DNA of 64,000 nucleotides. Origin: Bergeriella denitrificans NBRC 102155. Its GTDB lineage: Bacteria > Pseudomonadota > Gammaproteobacteria > Burkholderiales > Neisseriaceae. Positions 3,032-45,510 of the stretch are shown here, in pieces (within the stretch, counting starts at the first letter, position 1; every line of letters starts with the position of its first letter). Made by a program: the position numbers and the translations under genes. Below the pieces are notes generated by a model that saw only the letters and a program-made list of their open reading frames with translations, was not told the origin of the DNA and did not search any database. The DNA lies in NCBI RefSeq assembly GCF_001592185.1, contig NZ_BCWL01000001.1, positions 1 to 64,000 on the forward strand, given 5' to 3'.

Positions 3032-3110
3032 ATTTATAACCTGTGGTTTAAATTAAAAATGTTACGGATGTGTGTTAGTGGGGAAAATGATAAAACTGAT
3101 ACCCCGACAG

Positions 3111-3149
3111 CCCCCACCCTAGCCCTCCCCCGCAAGACAGGGGAGGGAA
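3111..3149 (+). repeat. GC-rich palindromic repeat, copy A
   Basis: CCCCCACCCTAGCCCTCCCC followed by a short loop and GGGGAGGGAAC. The same element occurs at 3331-3370 in reverse orientation and at 3891-3931 in this orientation, all within the nuoL-nuoM gap. Each folds into a CCCTCCCC/GGGGAGGG hairpin. Confidence 0.85.
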
Positions 3150-3330
3150 CCGGTTACTGTCATTTCATCGTTTTTCGTCATTACCCAACATGGCGGATGA
3201 AGCCTCTTAATCCGCCTGTATTTTCAGACGGCCTTATATCCCCTCAGTGATATAAGCGATAGGATTGTTTATAGACCACCATTTTACAATCTGTCAGGCC
3301 GTCTGAAACCTCAAACGCTCCTGTAATCTG

Positions 3331-26459: not shown

Positions 26460-27494
26460 CTATTTGCGCTTCAGCGGCTCAAGCACTTTGTCTTTGCGGA
26501 TATATTGCTTCGTCATGGCCGTTGAGGTGTGGCCGAGCTGGGCGCGGGCGGTGTCGGCGTCGCTGGAAAGGTAGATGTCGGTACCGGCTTTTGCCCGCAA
26601 ATCTCTGAATTGGAAGCTCTCTAAATCTTTTGCCATTTCGGGGTATCGGGCAATCAGGTTGTGGCGTAGTCTTACCCATCTTTCGGTCAGGGCTTTGCGG
26701 GTCAGCGGTGCGCCTTGGCTGTTGTGAAACAGGTAGCTGCCTGTGTTGCGTTTGTTGATGATGTCTGCCAGGTCTCCTGTGATGTGGAAGCGCAGTTTGG
26801 CGCCTGTTTTTTGTTGGGTGATGTGCAGTATGCCGTCGTGAATGTGATGGCTGTGGATTTTGACTAGGTCGATGGGGCGTTGGCCTGTGATGTAGGCTAA
26901 ATCCATTAGGTCGCGTATGGTTTCGTCGGCGTGGCTGTAAACGAATTTGTAGATGTGGTCTTCGATATACACGTCTTTGCGGCCTTTCAGGGTGTGTTTT
27001 TTGACGCCTTGTGCGGGGCTGGCTTGGTTGGTGTAGCCTAGTTCGCGTCCGTAGTTCCACATGATGGTGAACAGGGATATTTCGTTGTTGGCGGTGGTCG
27101 GGGTGTCTTTGCGCCATTGCAGGTATTGGCTGATATGGCTGGGGTGTATTTTGTTTAGGGGTGCGTCTGGGTTGCCGAAAAATTGTTGCAGGGGCTTGAG
27201 CCATGCTTGGTATCTTTTGGCGGTGCTGGGGGCGGTTTTGCCGCTGTTGATGATGTCGTGGATATAGCGGGCGGCCAGTTGGTTAAAGGTAACGGCGGGA
27301 ACTTGTTTTTTGGTTTCGAGCTCTGCCCATTTTTTTACGGCCAATACGTAGTCGGTGCCGAGTGGGATTTCTTTACGGGGCTGTCCGCCTGCGTCGTAGA
27401 AGTAGTAGGTGACGGGGTCGCTGTATTTGCGGCTGCGGGTGCGCGCTCTCATGCCTTTGGGCAGGTTGAGGTGTACGGTGTTTTTTCTGCCCAT
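26460..27494 (-). CDS. int: Phage tyrosine-recombinase integrase
   Basis: A 344-residue site-specific recombinase. A core-binding domain (residues 60-160) is followed by the catalytic domain: Arg in TGQRPIDLV, then RDLRAKAGTD, LGHTSTAMTKQY with the nucleophile Tyr near residue 332. The usual HxxR box reads RDLR, so the first His is replaced by Arg, a known variant in phage integrases. AGGAG lies 6 bases upstream of the ATG. It is the last gene of the leftward early operon, next to the presumed attachment site. Confidence 0.95.
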   Translation of the reverse strand: MGRKNTVHLNLPKGMRARTRSRKYSDPVTYYFYDAGGQPRKEIPLGTDYVLAVKKWAELETKKQVPAVTFNQLAARYIHDIINSGKTAPSTAKRYQAWLKPLQQFFGNPDAPLNKIHPSHISQYLQWRKDTPTTANNEISLFTIMWNYGRELGYTNQASPAQGVKKHTLKGRKDVYIEDHIYKFVYSHADETIRDLMDLAYITGQRPIDLVKIHSHHIHDGILHITQQKTGAKLRFHITGDLADIINKRNTGSYLFHNSQGAPLTRKALTERWVRLRHNLIARYPEMAKDLESFQFRDLRAKAGTDIYLSSDADTARAQLGHTSTAMTKQYIRKDKVLEPLKRK

Positions 27495-29376: not shown

Positions 29377-30234
29377 TCAAATGCCTTGCTGCATACTGTG
29401 TTGCAGCCTGCCGTAAATGCTTTGCTGTTCGGGGTTCAGGGTGCGGCTGTTGCGCTCGCACCAGTTTTGCACTTTCTCGAAGATGGTATCGGTGTCGTGG
29501 ACGTAGCTCCATACTACGCCGCCGTAAGTCAGACCCAGGTTTTGGAATGCGGGCAGGTGGTAGCCGACTATGCGGCGCATTCTTTCTGCATTGAGCAACA
29601 GGCGGGTAATGCTTAATACGTCTGCGCCGCTGGTTTGGGGATTGGCTGTGCCGTAGGCTTCGGGGGCGTTGGGTATGCTTGCCAAGTAGTTTAAGGCCGT
29701 CTGAAAGTCTGCCTGCTTGATTTGGGTGTAGCTGAAGACGTTCATGTAGCAGTGCAGTTTGTGATAGACGGCGCGACTGCTTTCGCCTGTACGCTGGCAG
29801 CGTTGTTTGACGGCTGCTTGGATTTGGCGGCACTCGTAGGCATTCAAGGTGTCGCTGTGTTGGGGGTTGGTGTAGCTGCCTGTTTTGCGGATTTGCGGGA
29901 TAACTTCTTCAAATATCCAGTCTTGGAATTTGACGGCCTCGGCTTTGTTGCTGCGGAAGATGACGCGGTAGAGGTTCGGCTCGTTGATGTAGGTCAACTC
30001 TTGTTTGCCGCCTGCGGTGGCCGTTTGGATTTTGAAAATGCCTGATGCTTTTAGACCGCCTCGATTTTTAAGGGTGTCGTTTTTAACGACCCCCTTTGAA
30101 ACTTGCAGTAAATCAGAACTTCGGGGGATTTCCAAAATATCGGCAACGTCTTTCAGACAGAACAGTGGTTCGCCATTTTGAAATTCAACACGCACGTTTT
30201 GGGCAGCTTGGAATTGGAAAATTTGAGTTTGCAT
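29377..30234 (-). CDS. Bro-N domain protein, probable antirepressor
   Basis: A 285-residue protein. Residues 1-105 form a Bro-N domain: EPLFCLKDVADILEIP, then YINEPNLYRVIFRSNKAEA and FQDWIFEEVIPQIRKTGSY, the standard end of the domain. The C-terminal 170 residues are helical and resemble an ORF6C-like or unknown partner domain. Bro-N/antirepressor proteins in phages counter CI-type repressors or bind DNA. Its location in the OL-controlled operon fits an antirepressor. The 5' leader contains two strong hairpins. Confidence 0.85.
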   Translation of the reverse strand: MQTQIFQFQAAQNVRVEFQNGEPLFCLKDVADILEIPRSSDLLQVSKGVVKNDTLKNRGGLKASGIFKIQTATAGGKQELTYINEPNLYRVIFRSNKAEAVKFQDWIFEEVIPQIRKTGSYTNPQHSDTLNAYECRQIQAAVKQRCQRTGESSRAVYHKLHCYMNVFSYTQIKQADFQTALNYLASIPNAPEAYGTANPQTSGADVLSITRLLLNAERMRRIVGYHLPAFQNLGLTYGGVVWSYVHDTDTIFEKVQNWCERNSRTLNPEQQSIYGRLQHSMQQGI

Positions 30235-33981: not shown

Positions 33982-34068
33982 TGTTTGTTGATTTTAAATA
34001 GAATTTTGTGTGTGAATTTATGAAATAAACAAAACTGCCCCATTGGGGCGGCTTGCTACAGGCAAAAT

Positions 34069-34093
34069 AAAAACCCGCTCTGGGCGGGTTTGG
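34069..34093 (-). terminator. Terminator of small cassette 1
   Basis: AAACCCGCCCAGAGCGGGTT hairpin followed by TTTATTTT on the minus strand, 14 bases past the stop of the 34107-34322 gene. Confidence 0.85.
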
Positions 34094-34106
34094 TGTGTGC
34101 TTTAGC

Positions 34107-34322
34107 TTATCGGCTTGCCAGCCATTCGGTACAGATTTTTTTAAGGGCTTGGATTTTGCTGCCCCCTGCTTTTTCGATGGCCGCCAGAACGGCATCGATG
34201 TCTTCGGCTTTGCCTTTAACGGCAAACTGCTTGTATTCGCCGCTGGCGAGCTTGGCTTTGGCAAAGGCGGCGGCGGTGGTCTGCCGCAGCTTGCGGGAAT
34301 GCTCGGTATTGGAATTTGCCAT
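34107..34322 (-). CDS. Ribbon-helix-helix-like small protein, cassette 1
   Basis: A 71-residue protein, paralogous to the product of 45053-45265. Residues 28-71 (SGEYKQFAVKGKAEDIDAVL, then AAIEKAGGSKIQALKKI) show strand, helix, GGSK turn, helix: the layout of Arc/MetJ ribbon-helix-helix DNA-binding proteins. The N-terminal 27 residues are basic and Ala-rich. AGGA lies 9 bases upstream. It is the second gene of a two-gene cassette after an 18-residue hydrophobic peptide, and may repress the cassette promoter, whose -10 box lies in a palindrome. The RHH call is my inference from pattern, not from a search. Confidence 0.7.
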   Translation of the reverse strand: MANSNTEHSRKLRQTTAAAFAKAKLASGEYKQFAVKGKAEDIDAVLAAIEKAGGSKIQALKKICTEWLASR

Positions 34323-34366
34323 TTCGGGTATCCTTTGGTAAGATGGTTATATAAAGTTTGGAGGAA

Positions 34367-34386
34367 GGGCGGCGTTTCCACCGCCC
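34367..34386 (-). other. GC-rich hairpin between peptide and RHH gene, cassette 1
   Basis: GGGCGG and CCGCCC flank an 8-base loop, without a T run after it on the minus strand. The equivalent hairpin exists at 45311-45338 in cassette 2, so it is probably functional, for example as an attenuator or a site of RNA processing. Confidence 0.6.
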
Positions 34387-34403
34387 CGATTTAGTTAACT
34401 ACG

Positions 34404-34460
34404 TTACCATGCTTTGCTAGAGATAAGTAACATAATCAACAGGATTAAGAACTTAATCAT
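34404..34460 (-). CDS. 18-residue hydrophobic peptide, cassette 1
   Basis: MIKFLILLIMLLISSKAW: a single membrane-spanning run with a basic start and a Lys-Ala-Trp end, like type I toxins. The mRNA has AAGGAGGTGAT, an 11-base perfect complement of the 3' end of 16S rRNA, 8 bases upstream of this ATG as measured from GGAGG. An ATG two codons earlier (34466) is too close to that site. The peptide of cassette 2 has the same size and character. Confidence 0.65.
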   Translation of the reverse strand: MIKFLILLIMLLISSKAW

Positions 34461-34489
34461 TTTCATCACCTCCTTTCTTTTTCGGATTT

Positions 34490-34510
34490 CCCGCCGCCTC
34501 CAACGGCGGG
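34490..34510 (-). other. 5' UTR hairpin, cassette 1
   Basis: CCCGCCG and CGGCGGG form a 7-bp stem with a 7-base loop between the promoter and the peptide start. A GC-rich hairpin is found at the same place in cassette 2 (45432-45449). Confidence 0.6.
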
Positions 34511-34537
34511 ATTTCTTCTTTCCTAATCCATAAATGT

Positions 34538-34566
34538 ATTATATCGTAGCCATATAATAAAGCCAA
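34538..34566 (-). promoter_or_regulatory. Cassette 1 promoter with inverted repeat over -10
   Basis: On the minus strand TTGGCT, 17 bases, TATAAT. The -10 box is part of the inverted repeat ATTATAT/ATATAAT (34538-34558). That placement suggests autorepression. Confidence 0.7.
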
Positions 34567-34652: not shown

Positions 34653-34772
34653 TTATCGGCTAGGCAAACTGCGGCAATGAGTGCATACAATTTCCCATTG
34701 GCCGTTGCGATAACGGTCATATTGGCGAACGCGAACTGGTTTTAAGCCAGTACAGTTACAATTGCAGGTCAT
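34653..34772 (-). CDS. Cysteine-rich (zinc-ribbon-like) micro-protein
   Basis: A 39-residue protein beginning MTCNCNCTGLKPVRVRQYDR, with CNCNC near the start and CTHC near the end, two possible zinc knuckles around a basic core. The ATG at 34772 has AGGAG 8 bases upstream, so I prefer it to the 73-residue frame starting further up. It may bind nucleic acid; function unknown. Confidence 0.6.
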   Translation of the reverse strand: MTCNCNCTGLKPVRVRQYDRYRNGQWEIVCTHCRSLPSR

Positions 34773-34988
34773 TATCTGATCTCCTATTGTAATGCGTGCT
34801 ACGTTTTCAATTTTTTTACAACCTTTCGAAATGTAAAAAATTTGCTCCTGCGCCGGTATCATAGGATAATTCACGGTCTAGTAAATTTGTGTATCCTCAT
34901 AATACACAGCGGTTAGTGTAAAGTTGCACATTCAAATCACTAACTATACGCGACTTGGGATGCGCCAACATTCCAAGTCGTTTTCTTT

Positions 34989-45052: not shown

Positions 45053-45265
45053 TCAGGCGTTTTCCAAATAAAATGAACAGATGGCAACCAATGCCTGGGT
45101 TTTTGAGCCGCCCGCTTTGGCGATGGCGGCGTCGATAATATCCATCTCTGCCGCTTTGCCCTGCACGCCGATGCGGCGGTATTCGCCGCTTTTGAGCTTG
45201 GCTTGATTAATGGCGGTGGCAGTTTTAGCATAGCGCTTTTTGGCTTCGGGGGAAATGTTTGTCAT
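45053..45265 (-). CDS. Ribbon-helix-helix-like small protein, cassette 2
   Basis: A 70-residue paralogue of the 34107-34322 product; residues align over SGEYRRIGVQGKAAEMDIID and AAIAKAGGSKTQALVAIC. Same strand-helix-GGSK-helix layout. AAGGAAAAG precedes the ATG. It faces the methylase gene tail to tail, with the stops 2 bases apart. It is preceded by a hairpin and a 22-residue hydrophobic peptide exactly as in cassette 1. Confidence 0.7.
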   Translation of the reverse strand: MTNISPEAKKRYAKTATAINQAKLKSGEYRRIGVQGKAAEMDIIDAAIAKAGGSKTQALVAICSFYLENA

Positions 45266-45310
45266 GGCTTTTCCTTGATTTTTTCGGCAGGGTTTTGTAA
45301 GATAAGGGAA

Positions 45311-45338
45311 CTAGGCGGCGGTTGCCGCCACCGCCTAG
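45311..45338 (-). other. GC-rich hairpin between peptide and RHH gene, cassette 2
   Basis: CTAGGCGG and CCGCCTAG form a perfect 8-bp stem, with an inner CGG/CCG pairing. It starts 3 bases beyond the peptide stop codon. Confidence 0.65.
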
Positions 45339-45341
45339 CTT

Positions 45342-45410
45342 TCAGTAAGCCGTTGCGCTTACCAACATCAGAAACAGAAAGAACAGAATTTGAATAGTGA
45401 TGTTATTCAT
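45342..45410 (-). CDS. 22-residue hydrophobic peptide, cassette 2
   Basis: MNNITIQILFFLFLMLVSAT plus AY: one hydrophobic helix with a polar start. AAGGGA lies about 8 bases upstream. It holds the same place as the 18-residue peptide of cassette 1; the sequences differ but size, hydrophobicity and flanking hairpins agree. Confidence 0.6.
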   Translation of the reverse strand: MNNITIQILFFLFLMLVSATAY

Positions 45411-45431
45411 TTTCTAATCCCTTATGTAATC

Positions 45432-45449
45432 GCCCCGCTTCGGTGGGGC
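45432..45449 (-). other. 5' UTR hairpin, cassette 2
   Basis: GCCCC and GGGGC around an 8-base loop, between promoter and peptide start. Counterpart of 34490-34510. Confidence 0.6.
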
Positions 45450-45481
45450 TTTTCCCGTTGTTGAACCGCTCAACAGGTATT

Positions 45482-45510
45482 GTTTTAGTTAAAACTAAAA
45501 CAAAAGTCAA
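45482..45510 (-). promoter_or_regulatory. Cassette 2 promoter with inverted repeat over -10
   Basis: On the minus strand TTGACT, 17 bases, TAAAAC. The inverted repeat GTTTTAGTT/AACTAAAAC (45482-45501) covers the -10 and most of the spacer, the same arrangement as in cassette 1 with a different sequence. Confidence 0.7.

Follow-up and report, generated by a model that had tools for sequence, protein, structure and literature searches.

Two small cassettes of similar plan lie on the minus strand of the stretch of Bergeriella denitrificans NBRC 102155 DNA analysed here (contig NZ_BCWL01000001.1, positions 1 to 64,000; hereafter, the 64,000-nucleotide window). Each encodes a short hydrophobic peptide resembling the Ibs toxins of Escherichia coli, followed by a protein similar to ribbon-helix-helix (RHH) DNA-binding proteins, and each carries, on the opposite strand, a candidate promoter for an antisense RNA of the Sib type.

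Cassette 1 occupies positions 34566-34064. Its toxin-operon promoter, TTGGCT-17-TATAAT (34538-34566, minus strand), matches the consensus at 10 of 12 positions in the promoter scan, and its -10 box is spanned by an inverted repeat with 8-bp arms and a 7-nt spacer (34537-34559), a putative operator for the RHH protein. Downstream are hairpin 1 (34490-34510), a near-perfect Shine-Dalgarno region, AAAGAAAGGAGGTGAT (34465-34480, minus strand), and the open reading frame (ORF) of an 18-residue peptide, MIKFLILLIMLLISSKAW (34404-34460, minus strand), for which in-frame starts further upstream are also possible. Behind the ORF come hairpin 2 (34367-34387), an anti-Shine-Dalgarno stretch, CTTCCTCCAAACTTT (34353-34367, minus strand), the gene of a 71-residue RHH-like protein of family A (34107-34322, minus strand; phrog_27481, E 1.7e-14) and a terminator detected by the terminator scan (34064-34091, minus strand). 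The order of promoter, hairpin, 18-residue peptide, hairpin, 71-residue protein and terminator had been proposed in an initial annotation made from the sequence, and every part was located as claimed. Absent from that annotation were the antisense promoter TTGCCA-17-TAAGAT (34316-34344, plus strand), the complementarity between the Shine-Dalgarno and the bases that follow hairpin 2, and the reading of hairpin 1, which on the plus strand is followed by TTTCTTCTTT and is called terminator-like (34489-34511), as the terminator of an antisense RNA. The scan of cassette 1 returned exactly two promoters, the toxin promoter and the antisense one. A Sib-like antisense RNA with ends placed by this promoter and terminator would span positions 34352-34521 of the plus strand.

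Cassette 2 (45510-45053) begins with a promoter, TTGACT-17-TAAAAC (45482-45510, minus strand), that is weak by consensus and falls under the threshold of the scan; the putative operator here is an inverted repeat with 11-bp arms and a 2-nt spacer (45480-45503). There follow hairpin 1 (45432-45449), the Shine-Dalgarno region ATAAGGGA (45418-45425, minus strand, position hand-counted from the ORF start), the ORF of a diverged Ibs-like peptide of 22 residues, MNNITIQILFFLFLMLVSATAY (45342-45410, minus strand), hairpin 2 (45311-45338) and an anti-Shine-Dalgarno, TCCCTTAT (45302-45309, minus strand), that is the perfect complement of ATAAGGGA. An antisense promoter, TTGATT-17-TAAGAT (45275-45303, plus strand), matches the consensus at 8 of 12 positions and is likewise under the scan threshold. 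The RHH-like protein (45053-45265, minus strand; 70 residues, family A, phrog match E 1.5e-7) is 50% identical to that of cassette 1 over 68 residues. Thus, the plan that the initial annotation had ascribed to this second copy holds for the layout, the diverged peptide and the 70-residue protein; the promoter is weaker, and a scan of 53 nt downstream of the RHH gene revealed no terminator.

Recurrence of the layout and likeness of the peptide to Ibs

The layout recurs in 47 non-redundant cassettes selected for a peptide and an RHH gene; unless another set is named, the statistics below refer to these. Covariance models of the RNA region gave 24 matches at E<=0.01 in 16 of the 83 genomes of the family of the window (Neisseriaceae), two of these genomes (G061 and G066) having only weak matches without a peptide. 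In the family to which Gallibacterium belongs, 44 of the 121 genomes were matched. All 24 matches of the first family and 35 further ones were read, 59 loci altogether, R1-model matches without loci being left out. A peptide with a small and an aromatic residue at the C-terminus was present at 49 of the 59 loci, and an RHH gene lay on the same strand no more than 450 nt from the match at 42 of these 49 (one of the 42, L093, is truncated); four further loci have an RHH gene and no such peptide. The training elements of the models were found mostly via RHH genes, which makes this count of linkage partly circular. Among R2-model loci outside training (that is, excluding L070-L074, L077, L086 and L087), nine of the 12 with a peptide have an RHH gene, although at least L094, L095, L097 and L099 among the remaining R2 loci coincide with elements that trained R1 or closely resemble them. 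Copies lacking the RHH gene also occur in the genus of the window and in Pasteurellaceae, and none of the five E. coli ibs genes has an RHH gene within 600 nt. Tandem arrangements were seen in Histophilus somni (three peptides) and in a similar viral contig (four).

The window genome has two further loci of this kind beyond the window: at G000:C63:8068-8506 (L092, L002) the peptide is out of frame and the family A RHH gene is intact, and at G000:C4:37071-37265 (L070, L055) there is a cassette with an RHH gene of family C.

Upstream of the first RHH homologues collected there is mostly a peptide of 18-22 residues with the small and aromatic C-terminus (PAY, KAW, NAY or PAF). RHH homologues without an upstream peptide do exist (L009, identical with L068; L011; L013; and L067), and they are few among the loci read; at L002 the frame is broken. 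Locus L013 also carries two close genes (2659-2749 and 3080-3168, minus strand) of NmsRb (RF02877), a known family of Neisseria small RNAs.

The frame of the peptide is under purifying selection. In 14 disjoint pairs of relatives, pN/pS was 0.47 in frame versus 0.94 and 1.67 in the shifted frames, in a set pre-filtered for hydrophobicity and tail, a filter that favours a low in-frame value. Selection on the frame had been set by the initial annotation as a check, and its view that the layout is conserved in spite of sequence divergence is borne out beyond chance by the 47 cassettes together with this ratio. The C-termini of the peptides, IS[YLF]PA[YW], SSKA[YW], SATAY and similar (for example, ISYPAY* and SSKAW*), can be compared with those of E. 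coli IbsA-E (ISFQAY, ISFPAY, ISFSAY, VSFAAY and LSFPTY). The peptides of both cassettes (18 and 22 residues) have the hydrophobic character, approximate length (18-19 residues in Ibs) and C-terminal residues required of an Ibs peptide. According to excerpts of PMC8309996, the E. coli ibs genes are toxic, and IbsC, whose C-terminal residues are required, acts by depolarising the membrane. The initial annotation had envisaged a possible undescribed module; the toxin, however, is not of an undescribed kind, the peptide and RNA features resembling Ibs/Sib. Judged by sequence, the module is probably a distant relative of that E. coli system.

Signal-peptide and pheromone readings of the peptide were rejected, position -3 being unsuitable (by eye). 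Three other covariance-model matches (L120, L122 and L123) have peptides ending in LVSCSGTVI or alike, which are lipobox-like and have no aromatic tail, and no RHH gene was found beside them.

Predicted antisense RNA and Shine-Dalgarno pairing

In a permissive Rfam scan, the SIB_RNA model (RF00113) matched over its full length antisense to the cassette 1 peptide (34335-34475, plus strand; 23 bits, E 0.033). Of 12 cassette loci scanned, 10 gave full-length matches antisense to the peptide (E 1.3e-5 to 0.57); three RHH loci that lack a peptide gave none. In cassette 1, a candidate promoter, a terminator-like hairpin and a full-length RF00113 match below the gathering score lie on the antisense strand, and the predicted antisense gene would cover the whole ORF and its ribosome-binding site. 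Sib overlaps the whole ibs ORF and its ribosome-binding site according to excerpts of PMC4147584.

The best antisense promoter scored 9.33 on average versus 7.82 in shuffled sequences, with none of 40 shuffled sets as high, and in 46 of the 47 cassettes a fixed stretch downstream of the stop codon contained a promoter scoring at least 8.5. Applied to E. coli, the same scan located the -10 box of each of SibA-E 6-7 nt upstream of the annotated 5' end of the RNA. A search of 369 genomes of the class with RF00113 matched four genomes at E<=0.01, none above the cut-off, the E. coli control being above it; in the three genomes other than that of the window, one locus (L054) has an Ibs-like peptide without RHH, and in the other two (L056 and L057) the peptide filter detected no Ibs-like peptide.

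An exact TTGACA -35 element occurs in the antisense promoter of eight of 13 copies without RHH versus seven of 47 with it (Fisher p 0.0017), whereas the overall antisense promoter scores of the two groups do not differ (p 0.10); the copies in this comparison are not independent. The RHH-less copies L119, L125, L126 and L127 combine a strong antisense promoter with the exact element. A trade-off between RNA and protein control is possible, and we suggest it tentatively.

A second RNA feature is the stretch after hairpin 2, which is complementary to the Shine-Dalgarno of the peptide. In a Pasteurellaceae-type alignment of 10 sequences, five of the eight pairs of this helix are changed on both sides, and 87.5% of its cells are paired versus 16-53% in slid versions, the structure having been predicted from the same alignment as that tested. 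Three of five covariation measures beat all 500 shuffles. Over the 47 cassettes, cognate pairing scored 16.57 versus 13.17 for permuted partners (sd 0.36, maximum of 5000 permutations 14.60, p<=0.0002). Alignments by host group were foldable; a joint MAFFT alignment of the 22 elements was not. Another candidate, pairing of the 5' end with the ORF (GATTAGGA with TCCTAATC), hardly varies in the Neisseria-type alignment and is disrupted in L010, and it was therefore not relied on.

The RHH-like protein, its putative operator and the phage setting

RHH genes beside the peptides fall into three families: A (phrog_27481), B (phrog_3887) and C (phrog_8400). The profile of family A matches the plasmid partition protein ParG (PDB 1p94; profile positions 24-71) at a borderline E of 9.9e-4, and three of six family B proteins tested match Pfam RHH_1 above the cut-off, so that similarity to RHH sequence profiles was found for both families. 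No RHH match was found in Pfam for the three family C proteins tested, and Pfam (nothing above cut-off), NCBIfam and PADLOC gave no useful result for the two proteins of the window. In an AlphaFold2 monomer model of the cassette 1 protein, predicted helices at residues 39-52 and 56-70 follow the order of an RHH protein. We consider an RHH fold of the two window proteins likely.

Inverted repeats at the toxin promoters scored 5.83 versus 4.59 in mononucleotide shuffles, and none of 40 shuffled sets was as high. The 17-bp promoter spacer covaries with the protein: when similarity in the Ibs/Sib core is taken into account, spacers are still the more alike the more alike the RHH proteins are (partial Mantel r 0.282, p<=0.0005, null sd 0.041; 42 of the 47 cassettes, the remaining five having no clear promoter). 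L111 and L112 provide the clearest example. From leader to anti-Shine-Dalgarno they differ at eight positions, four of them in the ORF and all of these synonymous, and the peptide is identical; their promoter spacers differ, and the RHH protein belongs to family B in L111 and to family A in L112. In Advenella L067 the peptide, its Shine-Dalgarno and hairpin 2 are lost, and the promoter repeat and RHH gene are kept (by eye).

Both window cassettes lie in an apparent lambda-like prophage with a CI-like repressor, O-like and DnaB-like replication genes, a DNA methyltransferase, a terminase and an integrase-like ORF (26460-27494, by eye). Cassette 2 is on the strand opposite to both flanking genes, as in a moron. 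Cassettes are also present in the records of Mannheimia phages PHL101 (beside the integrase), vB_MhS_1152AP2 and vB_MhS_587AP2, of Moraxella phage Mcat15 (between tail genes, against the flanking strand) and of a Kingella plasmid (beside a tape-measure gene, against the flanking strand). In a gonococcal record the tail of the peptide is out of frame, and an Acinetobacter plasmid protein with a family C-like stretch (L136) has no such cassette beside it. The RHH gene is annotated in the phage and plasmid records as a hypothetical protein or transcriptional regulator, and the peptide is unannotated in the feature tables seen, that of the plasmid being incomplete. When 50,697 phage records were searched by tblastn, family B was found in 16; neither the RHH of the window (E<=0.01) nor a family A protein of Pasteurellaceae (E<=0.001) had a match.

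Elsewhere in the window, a C4 antisense RNA (RF01695; 30287-30373, minus strand; 46.2 bits versus a gathering score of 45) adjoins an ORF that is antirepressor-like by eye (29377-30234); together these are perhaps a C4/ant-type immunity region. Upstream of cassette 1 there is a small cysteine-rich ORF, CNCNCTGLKPVRVRQYDRYRNGQWEIVCTHCRSL (34653-34874, minus strand), which calls to mind the Com-type zinc-binding proteins of phages.

A proposed doubly controlled toxin: interpretation and relation to known systems

By computation, the architecture, the covariation, the selection on the frame, the linkage of peptide and RHH genes and the joint change of promoter spacer and RHH are established. We consider it probable, with good confidence, that each cassette is an Ibs/Sib-like type I toxin-antitoxin module with an RHH autorepressor in the same operon, carried by a prophage and keeping its toxin under a double lock. 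The peptide of 18-22 residues would be the toxin, inserting in the inner membrane and depolarising it as E. coli Ibs does. An antisense RNA of about 170 nt, starting near the RHH leader and ending at hairpin 1 after crossing the whole ORF and ribosome-binding site, would pair with the toxin mRNA and block its translation. The Shine-Dalgarno of that mRNA would also be masked by the covarying complementary stretch 3' of the ORF. The RHH protein, made from the same mRNA, would bind the palindrome of the toxin promoter and repress the whole operon. With an RNA lock and a transcriptional lock, the toxin would be held twice. If the element is lost, or enters a naive cell, the toxin may be released before the locks re-form, which points to a probable role in prophage maintenance or exclusion, although this is the weakest step of the scheme.

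Several observations weigh against this interpretation. No SIB_RNA match reaches the gathering score of 56 (cassette 1 has 23 bits and the best relative 44.5), L008 and L018 among the 12 loci scanned have no match, and in the scan of cassette 1 a Trp_leader match on the operon terminator (E 0.0016) outscored SIB_RNA (E 0.033). Since the gathering score is not reached, we do not file the module as a member of RF00113, and because of the sub-gathering scores and the better Trp_leader match in the window, we put weight on the recurrence of the signals and not on the window alone. Cassette 2 by itself is weak, with a SIB_RNA E of 0.57 and no promoter above the scan threshold. Only 11 of the 47 operators singly beat 95% of their own shuffles, and the automatic choice of promoter in that palindrome test was visibly wrong in some cassettes. 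As for the Shine-Dalgarno helix, 22 of 500 shuffles had as many pairs altered on both sides, and 474 of 500 had as many further pair types. Seven of the 49 peptides have no RHH gene beside them. Finally, DSSP assigns no strand in the AlphaFold2 model, and RHH matches from fold searches were not significant (best Foldseek E 5.4; VIA Z 3.2).

The alternative that holds up best is a prophage moron for superinfection exclusion or lysis timing, in which the peptide acts on the membrane and the benefit is not addiction. It draws on the isolated position of cassettes among the phage genes of phage-type records, with flanking genes on the other strand in two of them (Mcat15 and the Kingella plasmid), on the position next to the integrase in PHL101 and on the orientation of cassette 2, such surroundings having been inspected in phage-type records, in the window and in at most a minority of the genome copies. 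Against it, the signals of the antisense gene and of the operator resemble silencing more than timed expression, and we regard this alternative as unlikely, if worth serious consideration.

A toxin-antitoxin-like module with autorepression was already the suggestion of the initial annotation, and the evidence favours it, except that the RHH protein is less likely than the antisense RNA to be the antitoxin. RHH proteins are common type II antitoxins, and at 42 of the 49 loci a gene of this kind immediately follows that of the toxin, as it would if the RHH protein itself bound and sequestered the membrane peptide and the RNA features were secondary. However, RHH proteins of three distinct families serve similar peptides, and L111 and L112 combine one peptide with families B and A; a conserved peptide-binding surface is therefore unlikely. 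Besides, the promoter spacers change with the RHH protein, and the antisense promoter and hairpins are kept in RHH-less copies, E. coli included. We thus hold a type II antitoxin to be very improbable; judged by sequence features, the likely direct antitoxin is the antisense RNA from the opposite strand.

That the short ORF is no toxin at all and encodes a leader peptide regulating the RHH gene by attenuation or coupling, as its position, size, flanking hairpins and the terminator-like form on the sense strand of hairpin 2 in cassette 2 (but not in cassette 1) might suggest, we find scarcely credible, since the Trp_leader match covers the operon terminator and not the ORF, the same peptide and RNA element occur without an RHH gene at L079, L083, L091, L119, L125, L126 and L127, the features kept are hydrophobicity and the small and aromatic tail rather than regulatory codons, and the same kind of element constitutes the E. 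coli ibs genes, reported as toxic in excerpts of PMC8309996.

The doubly locked Ibs/Sib-like module that we favour shares with E. coli Ibs/Sib (RF00113) a hydrophobic peptide of 18-22 residues with a small and an aromatic C-terminal residue, the order of hairpin, Shine-Dalgarno, ORF, hairpin and complementary stretch (in four E. coli genes read), an antisense promoter that in most cases lies 40-65 nt past the stop codon, and the occurrence of neighbouring copies. Unlike it, the cassettes score below the Rfam gathering score, carry in addition an RHH gene and a promoter palindrome, and occur in Neisseriaceae, Pasteurellaceae and Advenella genomes as well as in Mannheimia and Moraxella phage records. 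Omega-epsilon-zeta and similar three-component type II modules have a separate RHH repressor for the toxin operon, another component being the antitoxin. The cassettes would resemble them in plan, with a dedicated RHH protein and a separate antitoxin, but here an antisense RNA apparently serves as the antitoxin, and a membrane peptide as the toxin. ParG is the best profile match of family A, whereas the palindrome of the cassettes is at the toxin promoter; no partition gene was noticed beside the window cassettes, in the course of an inspection that was not a systematic search. The apparently novel elements are the presence of an RHH gene in the toxin operon, the operator of that gene product and the location in phages. 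Among the titles and abstracts searched, none described Ibs together with RHH; earlier lists of Ibs homologues outside enterobacteria were not part of this search.

Going further, the cassettes could represent a hybrid class with RNA and repressor locks, in which swappable operator-RHH pairs act as immunity types and related elements exclude each other on entry by infection or natural transformation into cells without the matching RHH protein and antisense RNA, where the toxin would act ahead of both locks, E. coli Ibs/Sib being remnants that have lost the RHH gene. We offer this as speculation that is more probably wrong than right by a wide measure.

Control of type I systems is mostly regarded as RNA-only, and the module would add a transcriptional layer to it. 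The reason for the five Ibs/Sib copies in E. coli is, to our knowledge, unsettled. A stand-alone Ibs-like module of phages and prophages with its own DNA-binding protein offers a setting in which the benefit may be tested as lysogen stability, exclusion or naive-cell entry, and the cassettes would provide a small natural set of swappable RHH-operator pairs.
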